Assembly (NCBI RefSeq): GCF_917563915.1
Contig: NZ_CAKJTI010000010.1
Span: 1 to 64,000, forward strand
Length of the DNA stretch: 64,000 bases
Direction: 5' to 3'
DNA from: Bacillus rhizoplanae
GTDB taxonomy: Bacteria > Bacillota > Bacilli > Bacillales > Bacillaceae_G
The notes beneath the pieces were generated by a model, which had not been told where the DNA came from, did no database searches, and saw nothing but the letters and a program-made list of their open reading frames with translations. Below are positions 2,833 to 28,230 of this stretch, in pieces; position 1 is the stretch's first letter, and each line of letters opens with the position of its first letter. The position numbers were made by a program, and so were the translations under genes.

Positions 2833-2991
2833 TTACCCGTTTTTCTTTACTATCTCCTTACTTGATAACAGAACTTTCATCTTTTTTACAATTAATATTA
2901 AAACTTACAATTTTTCGAAGTTATACGTCCATACCATTCTCTAAATAAATCATATATTAACAGAAATAGCAAAAAGTATAAGGTGAATAGA

Positions 2992-3996
2992 ATGACGGAG
3001 ATAAACAAAGTAGTTATTTCTGAAATTTTACAAAAGAATTATGGCATCATACCAGAAAACTTAGTACTAGTAAGACGTAAAGTGGACAGGCAGCTATGGA
3101 AGATAACCGACACTACTAAGAATGTGTATGCACTAAAATATCTACAAAAATATAAAAGAGCCCCTTTTATTGCTGCAGTAAATGATTATATGTGCGAAAA
3201 AGGGATTCCAGTAACTACTGTTCTTTCAACTTTGGATGGTACTTCGTTCGTAAATGTCGATGATGGCTGTTTTCTGCTGTTTCAATGGCTAGAAGGGGAA
3301 CAGCCCAATTATTCAGAGCCAGAAATGATAGAGAAAATGGCTACGCTGCTTGCAAAGTTCCATGTGGCGTCCCAAGGCTATGTTGCTGCAGGCAATCCAA
3401 TTACTGATTCGCGTCTTGATTGGAATGGAATCTATCAAAGAAAAATAAGAAAGATGGAAAAGTGTCAAAAAAAAGCCACTGTTAGTAGAGATTCATTCTC
3501 TAACGTCTTTTTATATCATTTACCTTGGCTGCAGTCTCGTGTCAACTGGGTACTTGATCAGCTTCCGCATACAGCTTTGCGTGCTCTATTGGATGCCGCA
3601 CAGCATGAGCCTCATCTCGCACATGGTGATTATTCCCCTCTTAATCTTATCTGGAGTAACAATAACGAGTTAACTGTAATCGATATGGATACTGTTAGCA
3701 TAGCTCTTCCCATGAGAGATATATCTCATCTCATTACTTGGGTTAACCATGCCTTAGGATCATGGTCTAGAGAAAGATTCCAACTCGTTTTAGATGCTTA
3801 CCAGCAAATTCATCCACTTTCTAGTGAAGAACATGAACTTCTTCTGCTCGATCAAATTTTTCCGCATAAAGCGATTCGATTATCAGAGAAATACTTCAAG
3901 AGCCCAGAGAATTCTAAGCTATTGAAAGAATTTGAGTGTTGTATAGAGATTGACAAAAAAAAATTAAATGACCTCGGATTGGGGCCTACACAATAA
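2992..3996 (+). CDS. CotS/APH-type small-molecule kinase-like protein
   Basis: A 334-residue aminoglycoside-phosphotransferase/choline-kinase fold protein, closest in style to the CotS/YsxE/YutH group of bacilli. Visible kinase features are YALKYL (ATP-binding Lys) near residue 45, LFQWLEGEQ (hinge), the catalytic HGDYSPLNLIW near 210 and the metal-binding VIDMDTV near 225. Since these are intact it could be an active kinase. ATG 2992 is preferred over GTG 2983 because AAGGTG is at better spacing. It is first in a four-gene run with a nucleotidyltransferase, a G1P-dehydrogenase-like protein and a CDP-alcohol transferase, so an attractive inference is that it phosphorylates the alcohol that is later activated with CTP. 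CotS-like spore proteins remain the alternative. Confidence 0.75.
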   Translation: MTEINKVVISEILQKNYGIIPENLVLVRRKVDRQLWKITDTTKNVYALKYLQKYKRAPFIAAVNDYMCEKGIPVTTVLSTLDGTSFVNVDDGCFLLFQWLEGEQPNYSEPEMIEKMATLLAKFHVASQGYVAAGNPITDSRLDWNGIYQRKIRKMEKCQKKATVSRDSFSNVFLYHLPWLQSRVNWVLDQLPHTALRALLDAAQHEPHLAHGDYSPLNLIWSNNNELTVIDMDTVSIALPMRDISHLITWVNHALGSWSRERFQLVLDAYQQIHPLSSEEHELLLLDQIFPHKAIRLSEKYFKSPENSKLLKEFECCIEIDKKKLNDLGLGPTQ

Positions 3997-4019
3997 GCGT
4001 TTATAGACGGGAGGTACGT

Positions 4020-4736
4020 ATGAGAATTGTTATATTAGCAGCTGGAGTTGGAAGTCGCTTATACCCTCTAACCATGGACAGTCCGAAAGCAATGATTAAG
4101 ATTAATGAAAAACCTTTAATACAGTACCAAGTGGAAAGTATGATAAAACTTGGTTTTGCATACGAAGATATCTATATCATAGGCGGCTATATGATCGAGC
4201 GGATTGAAGAGCATTTTACAGGAACAGGAATCCATTTTATATACAATCCGTTCTATAAATCAATCAATAATATTTATTCTTTTCTACTTTCCCAAGCTGT
4301 AGATGATGATATATTGCTAATTAATTCGGATGGTTTTTATGACAATCGATTAATTACATTAATCTTAAACTCAAAGTTCCCCACTTGCATTTTAGTCGAC
4401 CATGAAAAAGGGTTCACTGAGGAAGCAATGAAAGTGAAGCTAGAAGGTAACCGTTTGCATATGATAAACAAGCAATTACATTTGACTGATACAGATGGTG
4501 AATATATCGGCATTTCTAAATTGGCAGTTGATGATTTAAAAGTTCTATACAAAAAAGCAACGGACTTAATTGAAGCTGGAGAAACGAACAGTTGGTATGA
4601 AAACGTATATGAAGCCTGCGCTGCAAACGTGGAAATTCAGGCTGTAAATACGAAAGGGTATCCTTGGATTGAAATAGATGATTTGCATGATTTAGAGTAT
4701 GCGAAACAGCTTGCTTCGGCCATGGATACATCGTAA
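4020..4736 (+). CDS. Sugar/alcohol-phosphate nucleotidyltransferase (CTP-type likely)
   Basis: A 238-residue GT-A-fold nucleotidyltransferase. The N terminus carries the nucleotide-binding ILAAGVGSRLYPLT and PKAMIKINEKPLI; INSDGFYD near residue 100 supplies a metal-binding Asp, and WIEIDDLHDLEYA near 222 supplies the C-terminal one. Small enzymes of this shape include CTP:phosphocholine (LicC-like) and CTP:inositol-1-phosphate cytidylyltransferases. Its neighbour is a CDP-alcohol phosphotransferase, so CTP is the likely donor and a CDP-alcohol the product; the alcohol cannot be read from sequence. The ribosome binding site is GGGAGG, 24 nt after the kinase-like gene. Confidence 0.8.
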   Translation: MRIVILAAGVGSRLYPLTMDSPKAMIKINEKPLIQYQVESMIKLGFAYEDIYIIGGYMIERIEEHFTGTGIHFIYNPFYKSINNIYSFLLSQAVDDDILLINSDGFYDNRLITLILNSKFPTCILVDHEKGFTEEAMKVKLEGNRLHMINKQLHLTDTDGEYIGISKLAVDDLKVLYKKATDLIEAGETNSWYENVYEACAANVEIQAVNTKGYPWIEIDDLHDLEYAKQLASAMDTS

Positions 4737-4747
4737 GGGGGCTCACT

Positions 4748-5809
4748 ATGTCTAAGAACCTAGAACTCCCAGCTTATTTTATTCATGAGTCCAAGGCATT
4801 CGAACGTTTGCAAGACGGTGAGATTGTTGAATCTTTGGGAGAACAGAGAATAGTTGTCATTAGCGGCGGAGGTCCGACTCGTCAAATAGGTGAACATTTA
4901 ATTAACGAGCTAGGGCTACAACCGACGCAAGTTAAGGCTTTGTACTGCAGAGACAGCACGCTTCGAACGATTGATGAGTTAGAAATGGAATCCCAAAGTT
5001 TTTTTGCCGAAATGATTATTGGAGTTGGAGGCGGTAAGGTACTGGATGTCTCCAAAGTAGTCGGTACGAGAATGAATTTGCCAGTAATACTAGTACCAAC
5101 TTCTTTATCCAGTGATGCTATCTGTTCACCGGTTGCTTCAATTCAAGTGAATCCAACTAATAATATAAGTATCAACGTCCGAATGCCATGGGCTATCGTG
5201 ATTGATTTGGACATCGTGGCTCGTTCTCCTGCACGGTTATTTACTTCCGGTATCGGGGACTTGATTTCCAATAAGACAGCGCTGTTTGATTGGAAGCTGG
5301 CGCATCAAAGAAAAAAAGAAAAAATCAATACCTTTGCTTATTTGATTGCCGATCATGCGGTGGAATCTTTTTTTAATAAAATAAATCAGAATAATATAAG
5401 TAGAACAACTTTACTTCAGATAGTTGCTGAATCGCTAATCATGAATGGAATCGCTATGGCTATCGCCGGCACAAGCAGGCCGTGCAGCGGTTCAGAGCAC
5501 TTAATCAGCCATGCGTTGGATTACTATTGTGGCAAAAAAGCTCTTCACGGAGAACAGGTTGCCGTCGGGTTATTAATTTCCGAGTATTTACAAGGAAATC
5601 ATAACTCTAACAATAACATGAGACAATACTTTAAACATTTAGGTCTTCCTATTCACTACAAAGAGCTTGGTTATACAAAGGATGAAATGTGCTTAGCGAT
5701 TCAAAAAGCTCCTACTATACGAAATCGCTACACAATCTTAAATGAAACAGAACTAACAACGAAACACATTCACCATATTTTAGATGAGGTATTTCCCTTC
5801 TCACCATGA
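4748..5809 (+). CDS. Glycerol-1-phosphate dehydrogenase-like (AraM/EgsA family)
   Basis: A 353-residue member of the iron-containing alcohol dehydrogenase/dehydroquinate synthase superfamily, closest to sn-glycerol-1-phosphate dehydrogenases (AraM/EgsA), which reduce dihydroxyacetone phosphate with NAD(P)H. The nucleotide loop GVGGGKVLDVSKV is near residue 98, followed by VPTSLSSDA; the three metal ligands are present as Asp in SGIGDLISN, His in GSEHLISHAL and His in LHGEQVAVG. The enzyme should therefore be competent. It begins 12 nt after the nucleotidyltransferase and overlaps or abuts the CDP-alcohol transferase. The reduced product may be glycerol-1-phosphate or another polyol phosphate. 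Confidence 0.82.
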   Translation: MSKNLELPAYFIHESKAFERLQDGEIVESLGEQRIVVISGGGPTRQIGEHLINELGLQPTQVKALYCRDSTLRTIDELEMESQSFFAEMIIGVGGGKVLDVSKVVGTRMNLPVILVPTSLSSDAICSPVASIQVNPTNNISINVRMPWAIVIDLDIVARSPARLFTSGIGDLISNKTALFDWKLAHQRKKEKINTFAYLIADHAVESFFNKINQNNISRTTLLQIVAESLIMNGIAMAIAGTSRPCSGSEHLISHALDYYCGKKALHGEQVAVGLLISEYLQGNHNSNNNMRQYFKHLGLPIHYKELGYTKDEMCLAIQKAPTIRNRYTILNETELTTKHIHHILDEVFPFSP

Positions 5810-5831
5810 GATGATAAGGAGCGTGGTCTTA

Positions 5832-6653
5832 TTGACTGCCAACAAATATTCATTGAACGATATTAAAAATGCTTATAAACAGAAAGACGCTTGGTGGACA
5901 GTTTTTTTAGTGGATCCTGTCGCATCTAGGTTAATGCTTCCGCTGGCGAATTATACGAAGATTACCCCGAATCAACTTACCTTATTGGCATTCTTCACTG
6001 GCCTCCTAGCCGCTTTTCAATTTTATCAAGGTACCTATTTTTCGTTAGTCCTAGGCGCAGTTTTGTATCATATTAGCTTTACTTTCGATTGCATGGACGG
6101 AAAAATATCCCGCCTCAAAGGAACCGGTTCCATATTCGGAGCGTGGTTAGACTATATTTTAGATCGTACCCGCGTTGCCATTTGTGCTTTTTCATTCATG
6201 CTTGGACAATATCACCAATCAGGAGATGAAACATATTTTTATTTAGCTGCTCTTATTTGCTTTTTAGATAGTACACGATACATGAATTCACTGCTTGTTT
6301 CCAAATCGCGAAAAAAAATGCAAAAACAACTATCCGAAGCAAAGACGACATTTACAAAGGAAGGTCTCGATGTAAAAGAGGAGTTTTTAGGGGAAATTGT
6401 TTCTCGGTTTCCATCCTACTTGAAAATAAGAGGATTCTTTTTAAAAAGAAGAGTTCGCTTGCATCTCATGAGCGGAATTGAATATCAAATGTTTATTTTT
6501 ATCCTCGCTCCAATTACCGGGCTTATCCAAGAAGGAGTAATCTTCAGCTCTATTATTATGATTCTATTCGAATCAGCTATTATTTATAAGCTTTGGTTGC
6601 AAACTGTAGATTTCCAACGACAGCTAAACAGGTTAACGAAGGAAAGTGAATAG
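5832..6653 (+). CDS. CDP-alcohol phosphatidyltransferase family membrane enzyme
   Basis: An integral membrane enzyme that transfers an alcohol phosphate from or onto a CDP-activated substrate. The family signature is complete: D-C-M-DG-K-I-SR followed by G-x3-D-x3-D in FDCMDGKISRLKGTG and FGAWLDYILD (about residues 90-115). Several hydrophobic segments surround it, and the soluble region near 150-190 is basic. The frame is open from ATG 5784, which would overlap the upstream gene; AAGGAG at 5816-5821 favours TTG 5832. Last gene of the cluster, followed by a strong terminator. Partner acceptor (diacylglycerol, inositol-like phosphate, polyprenol) unknown. Confidence 0.85.
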   Translation: MTANKYSLNDIKNAYKQKDAWWTVFLVDPVASRLMLPLANYTKITPNQLTLLAFFTGLLAAFQFYQGTYFSLVLGAVLYHISFTFDCMDGKISRLKGTGSIFGAWLDYILDRTRVAICAFSFMLGQYHQSGDETYFYLAALICFLDSTRYMNSLLVSKSRKKMQKQLSEAKTTFTKEGLDVKEEFLGEIVSRFPSYLKIRGFFLKRRVRLHLMSGIEYQMFIFILAPITGLIQEGVIFSSIIMILFESAIIYKLWLQTVDFQRQLNRLTKESE

Positions 6654-6667
6654 CTTGTAATCATCAC

Positions 6668-6710
6668 AAAGAGCATTCAAAACTAGAAAATATAGTTTTG
6701 AATGCTCTTT
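6668..6710 (+). terminator. Terminator of the head-group cluster
   Basis: Near-perfect 18-bp stem AAAGAGCATTCAAAACTA with its complement and a 7-nt loop, followed by GTTTTATT, 15 nt past the last stop codon. Confidence 0.92.
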
Positions 6711-6822
6711 GTTTTATTAAAGACTTCAGACAGATAGAGACCTTAAGTAAGAAAAAATATTGTCATAGATAACAAGGTAGAAAGGTATCGCATTTTACCG
6801 TACATCACTTCTGGTGCGATAG

Positions 6823-7011: not shown

Positions 7012-8518
<1,507 letters not shown>

Positions 8519-8520
<2 letters not shown>

Positions 8521-8553
8521 AAAAACGGATTCTTTGAAAAGAATCCGTTTTTT
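8519..8553. terminator. Bidirectional terminator between collagen-like and DUF4183 genes
   Basis: Stem AAAAAACGGATTCTT / AAGAATCCGTTTTTT with a TGAA loop lies between two convergent stop codons and has A/T runs on both flanks. Confidence 0.92.
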
Positions 8554-8557
8554 ATTA

Positions 8558-8842
8558 CTAGTTTACAACAAATTCAATCATAACCGGAACACCAGCATCT
8601 AAAACATCTCCACCAGGAATTGTAATAGCTGTTGTGGTTACAGTTGAAGTGTTTGCAAGCTGTAACTGTGCGTTCAGGTACAAATTATAATATGCAAATG
8701 ACGCAGGAAATGCCGTAGCAGCAGCTCCCGTGTCATCGCTAAAAGCAGTTGCTAAAATATTAAAAGTTGCTCCTGTTCCTGTTCCAACACCAATTGTTGA
8801 ATTAAATCTTTTACCTGCTAAATAAGGCTTAATAATAGCCAT
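8558..8842 (-). CDS. DUF4183 family protein
   Basis: A 94-residue protein made of one DUF4183-type domain: NSTIGVGTGTGATFNILA, then FAYYNLYLNAQLQ and GVPVMIEFVVN, matching in order the C terminus of the convergent collagen-like protein ([21 protein letters not shown]). Such short proteins are common near spore-surface genes of the B. cereus group. AAAAGGAG precedes ATG. A sporulation role is an inference from family and neighbour. Confidence 0.8.
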   Translation of the reverse strand: MAIIKPYLAGKRFNSTIGVGTGTGATFNILATAFSDDTGAAATAFPASFAYYNLYLNAQLQLANTSTVTTTAITIPGGDVLDAGVPVMIEFVVN

Positions 8843-9006: not shown

Positions 9007-9164
9007 TTTATCCCGCTATTCGCGGGCAGTAAAACCCCCACCTCAAGATTGTGAGGAGTCCGAAGAAGATACATGGGGGATAACTGCCCGTTAATGCCCG
9101 ATTGGTTCAACTAAACATCAGAGGGGGATAAAGCCCCCCTCCTCTGATGGAAGTTTCATTTTAT
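9007..9164 (-). repeat. bcr1-like repeat, full copy (reverse)
   Basis: TTTAT at 9007-9011 and 9160-9164 flank the two-hairpin body in reverse orientation (TTTATCCCGC start, GAAGTTTCATTTTAT end). It lies between the DUF4183 gene and the M42 peptidase terminator; the remaining bases of the 8843-9235 gap show no gene. Confidence 0.9.
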
Positions 9165-10430: not shown

Positions 10431-11885
10431 TCAAAAGATGCTTAACACGAGCGGAGTTGACACAGCTGCCTGATGGCACAACCCCTCTATTCCATCGGCA
10501 AACGCCTTTGGAACTGCTTTTTTTAAGATGTTATAGGAACCATTCACATCTGCGTTTAGTATAATCCTCTCTTTCGTGTAGTACAAGCCACGTTTGATAC
10601 GTTTTCCACTGAATACAGGGATGCCTTCCTCACCATAAGTTGGGATTGCATCATTGTCTAGAAAGGAGGCTTTACTTGTATAAGATTCTTCCACTACTTG
10701 TACCATAATGCCCTGTCGATTCGCCTTGTACTTAATCATTTCAATGAGTAGATTATGTGGGATATGGCAGAAGGATTGATTCTGTTGTTTCCCCATCTCA
10801 CTGTTTTGTTTCCATGCTATATTTTTCCCAATGACAATCATAGAGATTTCATGTTGAACTGCGAACTGGACAATGTGGTAACTTATTTTGTGAAAGAAGT
10901 CTTTGATTTTGAGAAGCCGTTTCTCATGCAGCCTCTCTAAACGCTTTGATGTGTGCGGTCCTTCTTTTGGTTCTTTTCCATGACGAAGAATACCAAGTAA
11001 ACGAGCCTTTTGCTTGTTGTAATATTGATTGATGCTTTTGATGACATTGCCCTTTACTAACACAGGTATGGTTCCTGTATTCGTTACGATGGTTGCAATG
11101 TTATTAATTCCTAAATCAATACTCATATAGCGATTGTTATCTACATGCTCAGACGCTGGCTCAGATTTTTCTGTCACGATTTCAACTTTAAACTTCCCGT
11201 AAGCAGGAGAAACACGTACCTCTTTTAGATTTTCGATCTGTCCGAACAATTTACCGATATTTAATTTTATACTTGTTTTTGGAAACCGAATATATTTATC
11301 TTGGAGTTTACATACTTGATTCGTGAATACAACTTCTCTCATAGATGATTTAATGTATTTGGGAATGCGAGGTCTACCCGTAAAAGTGGAAGGATGTTTT
11401 TCGTATGCTTTGATGGAAGCAAAGAATGATTTCCAGTTTTGATATAGCTTCTTCATAACTGCTTGATTCGTTTGTGCTGGCAAGCTCATATAATCTTGTT
11501 GCTTCATTGTTTTAAACAAACAATCTAGGAAGTTATACGATAAGAACGATTTCTCTTTTGTCGGAAATACAAACAGATTACATTTGATTTCTTTTCGCTT
11601 TTCTACAGGCTTTTCTTTCTGCTTTTGCACACGTTTTTGATATGCACAAAGTTGATTTTCATTCATGATTTCAATATATGCTTATAATGTATGGAGAACT
11701 TCTTGTTGAAGGGGCTGTAAAGTTTTCTCTGTACGTAAAGCCGTATACACTTGGCGAATGTAGAAGTTTGTTGTATTGTAGAGGGTTTTTGCATTTTGAC
11801 ACATTTCCATGAAATAGGCGTACAATTTATGACCTTTCTTGATCCAAATTTGATAGGCTGCATATTCTTTTTCTTTTGTTATCAT
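10431..11885 (-). pseudogene. tnpB: tnpB (RNA-guided nuclease of IS605 type) with in-frame stop
   Basis: The frame runs from ATG 11885 (AGGAGGTGAAC in front) for 67 codons, meets TAA at 11682-11684, then stays open in the same frame to 10431, so one nonsense change splits an otherwise intact 484-codon gene. The first part has EYAAYQIWIKKGHKLYAYF, the usual TnpB N terminus. The second open part (ATG 11666, 411 codons) keeps RuvC-I Asp (YMSIDLGINN) and RuvC-III Asp (ILNADVNGSYN). The RuvC-II position reads VIGKN without Glu; EESYTS lies further on, a pattern known for TnpB lineages with a rearranged active site. The CxxC zinc ribbon is absent. Reinitiation at 11666 would give a protein lacking the N terminus. 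Confidence 0.85.
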
Positions 11886-12167
11886 GTTCACCTCCTTCTT
11901 TTCTTCATGATACTACAAAACAGCCAAAAAGAACATACATTCGCAATACCACAAAAATATTTTTACAAATGCGATGGCAATTCATCTCCACCTTAAACTG
12001 GGCTATGCCCTGCACGTTTTGAAGATGGAGTTTTCTTGCCAAATTTTCGATAAAGAATTATTTGATGCTTACTTAATCCCTACATTCAAATTTATCTCCT
12101 TCTTGAACTAAACTGATCATTAGTACAAGAAGAAAAACGGTGCTACTTTATTACAAACGGTCAAACT

Positions 12168-27093: not shown

Positions 27094-28230
27094 TTATGAT
27101 ATGATAATTAATAATAACCCTTGCACAACTCCAATTAAGCCGCCAAGTAATGCACCTAAATACGTAATCATTTTCAATTCACTTTTTGTAATAGATAAAA
27201 CAAGTTCTTCTATGCGCTCAATTGGGAAAGTTTCTACTTCTTGCTGGACAATATCAGCTAAATACAAGCGCTGCATAATATCCGCAATATTATTCGTCGC
27301 CCACTGTAAGCTCTTTCGTATAGCATTCGGAATTACATTGTTTATCACATTTTCACGAATAGGAGCACACACATCACGAACAGATTGATTAAATAAAGCA
27401 CATACGGTTTGTTCCACTTTCACAAAGGAAAGAATACTTTTCACAACAGATTCTTTTGAAATAAATGTTTCTACTTCATTCACTTCACGCTGTTTCAGTT
27501 TTTCCCATTCTTTTCTCATGACATCAGACAATAATTGCTTCGTTCCATCTTGTTGTAAAAATTTAATAACTTCTGGCTGTAGTCGATCGACTAAACTTAC
27601 ATTACCTAAGAACATACCAACTAAATTTAATAATGTGCCACGTGATGCAAAAAAATCATCAATCATTTTAGCAAGACGTTGTTTTCCTTCTGGACTTTCA
27701 AAGAAGGTAATCGCTTTTTCTATAACAAAAGTAGCTGCATTCGGAATTTTTTCTTCAATCTTTTCATGAACAGAAAGCGGAAGAGCTTGTTCCCACGTAT
27801 AAGCACGATATGTTTCAAATAATGAATTCATTTTATTTGTGACGATGCTTTCAATTTGCTTTGTAACTCGTTCTTCTATATGCGTCATATTCAGCTTCTC
27901 TAACACTTCTCGCAATGTTTGTTCATTCATCAGAAGCTTATCCACTTCTATTTGGGCCCAATCAATGAGCTCTTGCTGAAAAGACGCATTTGTTAGCTTC
28001 TTCTCAATCCCTTCTGGTGTTAATAAATGATCTACAACCATTTTCCCTAATTGTACAGCTAACTCATCACGTCGCTTCGGAATTAACCCAGGCGTAAAAG
28101 GCACCCGAAATTTCCCAATATGTTTTGGATGATGCGGTCGAAATAACATTTTAATTGCAAGATGGTTCGTATATCCTCCAATGACCGCGCCTAGTCCTGT
28201 TGTTGTTAACAGATTCAGCCACATATTCAC
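27094..28230 (-). CDS. yheB: DUF445 membrane protein YheB
   Basis: A 378-residue DUF445 protein: an N-terminal membrane segment ([20 protein letters not shown]), a long helical middle part and a C-terminal membrane segment ([20 protein letters not shown]). [21 protein letters not shown] near 32-52 is the conserved family signature. Length matches B. subtilis YheB. Same strand and order as yheA in B. subtilis. Function unknown. Confidence 0.9.

Follow-up and report, generated by a model that had tools for sequence, protein, structure and literature searches.

A rare four-gene unit of Bacillus rhizoplanae combining a putative spore kinase with a possible glycerol-1-phosphate-dependent CDP-glycerol pathway

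Introduction

Among the described systems that resemble the operon reported here are the ytaA/cotS spore-kinase clusters of Bacillus (PMC2860764). These conserved, patchy clusters join a spore kinase to nucleotide-activation genes and contain uridine diphosphate (UDP)-sugar enzymes together with the glycosyltransferases cotSA/ytcC; control of cotS/ytaA by SigK and GerE is reported in section 13 of that paper. The portion of the paper drawn on here groups the spore kinases among small-molecule kinases, says that none had been assayed by 2009, and suggests that some may act on the reactants of nucleotide-sugar pathways, by binding or phosphorylating them. Here we describe a four-gene operon at positions 2992 to 6653 on the plus strand of a 64,000-nucleotide stretch of Bacillus rhizoplanae DNA (contig NZ_CAKJTI010000010.1, positions 1 to 64,000; referred to as the window). 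Like the ytaA/cotS clusters, it combines a putative spore kinase (gene 1) with nucleotide activation and is conserved and patchy. A SigK-type promoter block precedes it. Unlike those clusters, it encodes a LicC-like nucleotidyltransferase (gene 2), a reductase (gene 3), and a cytidine diphosphate (CDP)-alcohol phosphotransferase (gene 4) and no glycosyltransferase. We give an even chance to the reading that this is a late-sporulation mother-cell operon in which sn-glycerol-1-phosphate (G1P) is converted to CDP-glycerol of sn-1 handedness and passed to a membrane-associated acceptor for the spore envelope.

Other known systems share parts of this gene set. The TagD/TarD route also uses CDP-glycerol as the donor of envelope glycerol phosphate, but TagD is an HxGH-type enzyme acting on sn-glycerol-3-phosphate (PMC8262930), whereas here a GT-A-type enzyme stands beside a reductase of the G1P dehydrogenase (G1PDH) type. 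IPCT-DIPPS and AF2299 (PDB 4mnd and 4o6m) likewise pair a GT-A cytidylyltransferase with a CDP-alcohol phosphotransferase; their donor is inositol phosphate, whereas here the two functions lie in separate genes accompanied by the G1PDH-type reductase. The AraM/EgsA-PcrB pathway to an archaeal-type lipid in Bacillus (PMC8262930) has in common the presence of a G1PDH in Bacilli. Finally, a Streptomyces synteny group (araM-tagGH-CDP-alcohol phosphatidyltransferase-GT2) has the same core gene types and is termed teichoic acid associated, with no product given in the part of PMC13118837 used here. It differs in having an exporter, a family 2 glycosyltransferase (GT2), and two CDP-alcohol phosphotransferases (L006), and no spore kinase was found in it. 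The relevant portion of PMC8262930 argues that the great majority of bacteria lack free G1P, and describes a G1P-preferring cytidylyltransferase activity in Archaeoglobus, to which no enzyme is assigned there. We found no description of the operon or its product in the open-licence full-text literature, which leaves out most subscription journals. The separate families are known, and what appears to be new is the combination of a spore kinase with a G1PDH-type CDP pathway and its predicted stereochemistry.

Results

The four genes are real and intact and are spaced as the original prediction had described, with gaps of 23 nt between genes 1 and 2 and 11 nt between genes 2 and 3. In the open reading frame (ORF) listing, the kinase gene occupies 2992..3996 (ORF 2983-3996, ATG at 2992), gene 2 4020-4736, gene 3 4748-5809, and gene 4 5832..6653, all on the plus strand. 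Gene 4 could start at an ATG at 5784, from which its ORF is open and which overlaps gene 3, or at a TTG at 5832, 22 nt past gene 3. The TTG is the better fit, since AAGGAG precedes it and the alignment of relatives begins there. All four proteins pass Pfam curated cut-offs (APH, NTP_transferase, Fe-ADH_2, and CDP-OH_P_transf). The predicted terminator was also found, as an intrinsic terminator-like hairpin at 6666-6712 on the plus strand with a 20-bp perfect stem, a 7-nt loop, and a T-rich tail, though only 6 of its pairs are GC. The claim that catalytic residues are retained agreed with motif checks of the kinase, the dehydrogenase, and the CDP-alcohol phosphotransferase.

The unit recurs with its order kept (L001, L116, and L117), so the cluster is not a chance arrangement. 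When GTDB genome contigs were scanned once for exact peptide patterns, a single relative emerged, in Paenibacillus prosopidis (L001, 72%), with the four genes in the same order. A gene 2 search at 1e-40 in 325 genomes of the P. prosopidis family gave three matches, the L001 genome and two more: L116 (kinase, gene 2, gene 3, and gene 4 in order at 64, 76, 67, and 67% identity) and L117 (the same order at 57, 60, 64, and 69%). Protein identity among the cluster relatives was thus 57-76% overall, and the pattern scan gave a lower bound because it missed L116 and L117. The relatives were located via genes 2 and 3, and the kinase was never used as a query. The dehydrogenase at 1e-30 was present in 1 of the 51 genomes of the P. 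prosopidis genus set, the P. prosopidis genome itself, and at 1e-20 in 47 of 100 genomes of the genus with the best tyrS match, none above 35% identity among the matches listed. Since the same genes and order are found in P. prosopidis and two family genomes, the cluster can be described as a rare unit of patchy occurrence that is conserved in its entirety. The four families do co-occur, and the cluster is not confined to the Bacillus cereus group, as P. prosopidis carries it. A gene for S-adenosylmethionine decarboxylase adjoins the cluster in two of the four genomes (L117, 9 nt after gene 4, and L001:5613-5984).

A SigK-type promoter lies at 2926..2959 on the plus strand. It consists of the -10 box CATATATTA at 2951-2959, 41 nt before the ATG at 2992, a -35-like AC at 2933, and a CGTCCA block at 2926-2931. 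An exact CATANNNTA stands ahead of the kinase start in all four four-gene clusters, at 41 nt in the window and at 56, 37, and 47 nt in L001, L116, and L117, respectively. In all four, CGTCCA is found 25 nt upstream of it with identical spacing, and the two together form the clearest conserved block in the 130 nt compared. The chance of such a -10 per locus in ~100 nt is 1.4 to 3.6%. Among 15 kinase-less loci, none has such a -10 within 120 nt and one has it within 350 nt of the glycosyltransferase match; 4/4 versus 0/15 gives a Fisher p of 2.6e-4 between sets that differ in GC content. Because a SigK-type -10 and the CGTCCA block precede the kinase in the four clusters, late mother-cell expression is suggested.

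Gene 1 is a putatively active bacterial spore kinase (BSK) of the CotS/CotI family. It scores 177.5 bits against TIGR02906 (CotS), above the cut-off of 172.7, as do its orthologues in L001 (174.5) and L116 (179.6). Among solved structures, YtaA (2q83, E 1.7e-34) is the nearest to gene 1, which retains the kinase motifs HGDYSPLN and DMD. The activity-linked residues of PMC2860764 that were checked, D239, N244, DxD, and the HxxSxGY part of the linker (YtaA numbering), are conserved in 4/4 orthologues in the alignment. At the pocket positions Q238, R271, and K272 (numbering derived from the YtaA alignment), all four orthologues have G, S, and H, which places gene 1 in a separate class outside the CotI substrate class, and its substrate is probably different from that of the CotI class. 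The original prediction had feared that gene 1 might prove to be a CotS homologue and that the other genes would not co-occur; the first half came true, and the second did not. The kinase gave no match in plasmid records.

Gene 2 is nearest to enzymes that use cytidine triphosphate (CTP). Its profile search against the PDB placed LicC, a CTP:phosphocholine cytidylyltransferase, first (1.1e-32), 6pd1, which we take to be PntC-type and CTP-using, second (3e-27), and IPCT sixth (4.1e-13), after two sugar-1-phosphate entries and one unspecified nucleotidyl transferase. Its full-length similarity is best to the CTP-using members (LicC/PntC/IPCT cytidylyltransferases). The prediction of a CDP-activation and transfer pathway encoded by tightly packed genes is supported. 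We propose that gene 2 is a CTP:G1P cytidylyltransferase, with its CTP specificity inferred from homology.

Gene 3 is a dehydrogenase of the G1PDH type. Its profile matched 3ce9 (8.8e-101), 4rgq and 4rfl (2.3e-74), 5fb3 (8.8e-67), and 9h4x (1.3e-48); the last four, all named glycerol-1-phosphate dehydrogenase, outrank other glycerol dehydrogenases, and 4rgq is an archaeal-type G1PDH. Gene 3 carries the motifs shared by solved G1PDHs (GD...DW, SRP.SG.EH, and an R.RYT-like element) and the metal ligands D, H, and H, by homology D123, H251, and H267. Its motifs DWKLA, SRPCSGSEH, and RNRYTIL have the form common to solved G1PDHs and absent from one annotated GldA. Against NF002022 it gave E 1.3e-82, under the cut-off. 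A GldA identity was rejected, despite the name of 3ce9, on the lack of these motifs in the one GldA compared. Nor is an AraM-type enzyme the nearest match: 9h4x, which from its length we take to be AraM-type, ranks under the archaeal-type entries for gene 3 but first for the dehydrogenase L105. From the sequence, we infer that gene 3 reduces dihydroxyacetone phosphate (DHAP) to G1P.

CDP-alcohol phosphotransferases carry the motif D-x2-D-G-x3-R-x8-G-x3-D-x3-D. Gene 4 has it intact, as DCMDGKISR...GAWLDYILD with all four Asp present, and matches Pfam PF01066; its best PDB matches are AF2299 and IPCT/DIPPS.

Genes 2 to 4 also form part of a broader, kinase-less module, in which genes 2 and 3 are linked. 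The dehydrogenase was found at 1e-40 in 21 of 398 genomes of the class Bacilli; larger stretches were examined for 17 of these matches, plus L001, and flanks of ~1.5 kb or less for L026-L028. Gene 2 adjoins the dehydrogenase in 17 of the 21 loci. In 15 of these Bacilli loci there is a larger form, with the shared order of a GT2, a short CDP-alcohol phosphotransferase (not detected in L033 and split in L030), gene 2, gene 3, an ABC permease, an ABC ATPase, and a gene 4 orthologue. The permease and ATPase of L031, the one locus profiled, resemble galactan and teichoic acid exporters (TagGH-like). In one Bacilli family the dehydrogenase was present at 1e-60 in 10/10 genomes examined, all of which are counted in the 21. 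A set similar to the larger form occurs on two Streptomyces plasmids, in the annotated one beside hopanoid genes. A second CDP-alcohol phosphotransferase, with its last catalytic Asp replaced by Arg in 14/15 larger Bacilli clusters or by Ala in both Streptomyces loci (L005 and L006), adjoins the intact one in L029-L032, L034-L043, L005, and L006, a conserved pair of active- and inactive-looking enzymes.

A phylum sample showed the same linkage, with 17 of 299 genomes (18 loci) passing 1e-50 for the dehydrogenase. Gene 2 lies beside it in 9/11 stronger versus 0/7 weaker loci (p 0.0011), a comparison weakened by a division that was set after the scores were known and that includes L001 (8/10 versus 0/7 without it). 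Unlike the operon, these seven weaker loci, taken as AraM-like, have no adjoining gene 2; the label is based on score and length only for L106-L111, and for L105 the nearest PDB entry is 9h4x, while a look for motifs of an AraM-like protein there found nothing. Overall, gene 2 adjoins gene 3 in 29 of 65 loci scored, or 31 with L116 and L117 (the window included), and the 36 unlinked loci include 23 seen in short flanks only. A FastTree tree, which left out two short sequences, kept the linked dehydrogenases unmixed with unlinked ones except for the long-branch tip L067; its support values were not inspected.

The transferases near the gene 2-gene 3 pair bear on the activated alcohol. Of the 29 linked loci, 23 hold a CDP-alcohol phosphotransferase somewhere in the stretch examined; a TagF-type match at 1e-15 occurs in 6. 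One or the other type is held by 28 of the 31. In L044, the pair lies beside genes for CDP-glycerol glycerophosphotransferases (PF04464) and polysaccharide genes. PF04464 was also matched in L100, L101, L102, and L104 (6.5e-35 to 2.9e-56), and the TagF-type gene adjoins the pair in L044, L101, L102, and L104 and is 2.4 kb off in L100. Of all the evidence, these CDP-glycerol transferases in five loci point most clearly to glycerol as the activated alcohol. A kinase of the gene 1 type was not detected in the stretch examined of 27 of the 29 linked loci. No partner genes adjoin the plasmid-borne dehydrogenases of Cytobacillus and Nitratidesulfovibrio, and no gene 2 relative was found in viral contigs. 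Two side observations concern these loci: L044:7591-8418 is a HAD-IIA-type hydrolase gene adjoining the pair, and the Streptomyces plasmid L073 has a 40% relative of gene 4 with two Stealth-family protein genes ~3 kb further.

A cassette bounded by the direct repeats at 2630 and 6823 was considered and rejected, as this dispersed ~155-nt element has many full and partial copies across the window (2630, 6823, 9007-9164, 21960, 26383, 48744, 52248, and others). It is presumably bcr1-like, which would fit the B. cereus group, and it had no exact match in viral contigs. An IS605-type TnpB gene lies at 10431-11892, and a fragment at 2790-2837, just upstream of the cluster, is 88% identical to DNA on the 5' side of that gene. 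Further upstream are a plasmid-type Rep_1 replication protein gene (155-922) and the adjoining tyrS (961-2528) with a T-box leader (2307-2528), whose best DNA match in 398 class genomes (80%) is in a genome with two such matches. The protein encoded at 27094-28230 reached 48% at best, with 3 of the 398 genomes passing 1e-100. Among plasmid records, six from Priestia matched the window at 83-84% over short stretches, and none matched 24000-48000. Downstream, at 7129-8842, is a collagen-like gene with a DUF4183 end, directly followed by a separate DUF4183 gene; we take these to be of the spore-surface type.

Discussion

The DNA itself shows the four-gene unit, the protein families, the conserved promoter block, and the linkage of genes 2 and 3. 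The pathway that we build on them is putative as to its substrates (DHAP/G1P and CTP), its acceptor, where it takes place, what the kinase does, and the final product. Gene 3 would reduce DHAP to G1P, and gene 2 would join G1P to CTP to give CDP-glycerol of archaeal (sn-1) handedness. The membrane protein encoded by gene 4 would then take glycerol phosphate off CDP and pass it to an acceptor, either at the mother-cell membrane or at the outer forespore membrane, and the lipid-linked or glycan-linked product would be incorporated into the spore envelope. The spore kinase, with its own conserved pocket, may act on that product or on a partner in the coat, or may anchor one of them. An exporter would be unnecessary, since the mother cell encloses the coat and exosporium while they assemble, and mother-cell synthesis fits a four-gene form that lacks exporter and glycosyltransferase and has a spore kinase and SigK-type promoter. 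The narrower claim that the pathway is specific to spores, with cytosolic CDP-glycerol of archaeal handedness placed on the spore, we hold tentatively, as somewhat less probable than not.

Several points weigh against the proposed spore-envelope pathway. First, the assignments of G1P, CTP, and acceptor rest on homology. For gene 3, the closest structure, 3ce9, bears the name glycerol dehydrogenase, and its score of 277.6 bits misses the cut-off of 413 of the curated G1PDH model PRK00843, which the relatives L095, L102, and L105 likewise miss. Second, gene 1 is under the cut-off of the NCBIfam CotI model, and the L117 kinase, at 152.5 bits, is under that for CotS. Third, the linkage is incomplete: 4 of the 21 Bacilli dehydrogenase matches (three seen in short flanks only) and 2 of the 11 strong phylum-sample loci show no gene 2, and the linked L095-L097 have neither a CDP-alcohol nor a TagF-type transferase above thresholds. 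Finally, the promoter has a weak -35 (AC or GC), its four instances are homologous and do not count independently, and most of the 15 loci used for comparison are GC-richer than the window.

The alternative that survives best, although we consider it unlikely, is a role in the vegetative envelope, in which the kinase gene is a passenger and the operon makes a minor polymer, similar to teichoic acid, or a head group. The GT2 and TagGH-like exporter of the larger kinase-less relatives, and the presence of the dehydrogenase in all ten genomes examined of one Bacilli family, would fit such a role, but the four-gene form has neither transporter nor glycosyltransferase and has the conserved SigK-type promoter, and all four clusters located via genes 2 and 3 contain the kinase. 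It is also doubtful, and slightly more so, that the reductase and cytidylyltransferase use another ketose or aldose phosphate and yield a CDP-polyol other than CDP-glycerol. The G1PDH signature motifs of gene 3 and the TagF-type transferases in five loci with the pair speak for glycerol, against the similarity of gene 2 to IPCT as well and of gene 4 to IPCT/DIPPS and AF2299. The same relatives could suggest synthesis of a soluble compatible solute, similar to di-inositol phosphate or glycerophosphoinositol, that protects the spore or guards against osmotic stress; with no inositol-phosphate synthase among the four genes and relatives paired with a glycosyltransferase and an exporter, this is improbable. 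Least probable of all is a LicA-LicC-like scheme in which gene 2 activates an alcohol phosphate produced by the kinase: LicC is closest to gene 2 and PMC2860764 places spore kinases with small-molecule kinases, but such a kinase was not detected in the stretch examined of nearly all linked loci, and gene 1 matches CotS best, with an E of only 0.026 against Choline_kinase.

The original prediction had seen the kinase as a possible source of the alcohol phosphate. Since other loci with genes 2 and 3 show no kinase of this kind, the kinase need not supply it; the probable source is the reductase. It is more likely that the kinase was added to the pathway for spores than that it performs the first step. 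Likewise, teichoic-acid-like glycerol phosphate chemistry under sporulation control fits better than the IPCT-DIPPS or LicA-LicC frame first proposed. That a phosphonate route is unlikely held, with no PepM or phosphonate gene among the four genes in Pfam and family profiles.

An operon this small, with its donor predicted, offers a way to test the suggestion of PMC2860764 about spore kinases cited above. The gene 2-gene 3 pair, found in Bacillota and Actinomycetota, is a concrete candidate for the G1P-preferring cytidylyltransferase step. If the proposed pathway is true, a GT-A-type CTP:glycerol-1-phosphate cytidylyltransferase would be identified in bacteria, and a BSK kinase would be tied to a defined product, a tie of which we know no earlier case. 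The spores of some species would then carry glycerol phosphate of the handedness of archaeal lipids.

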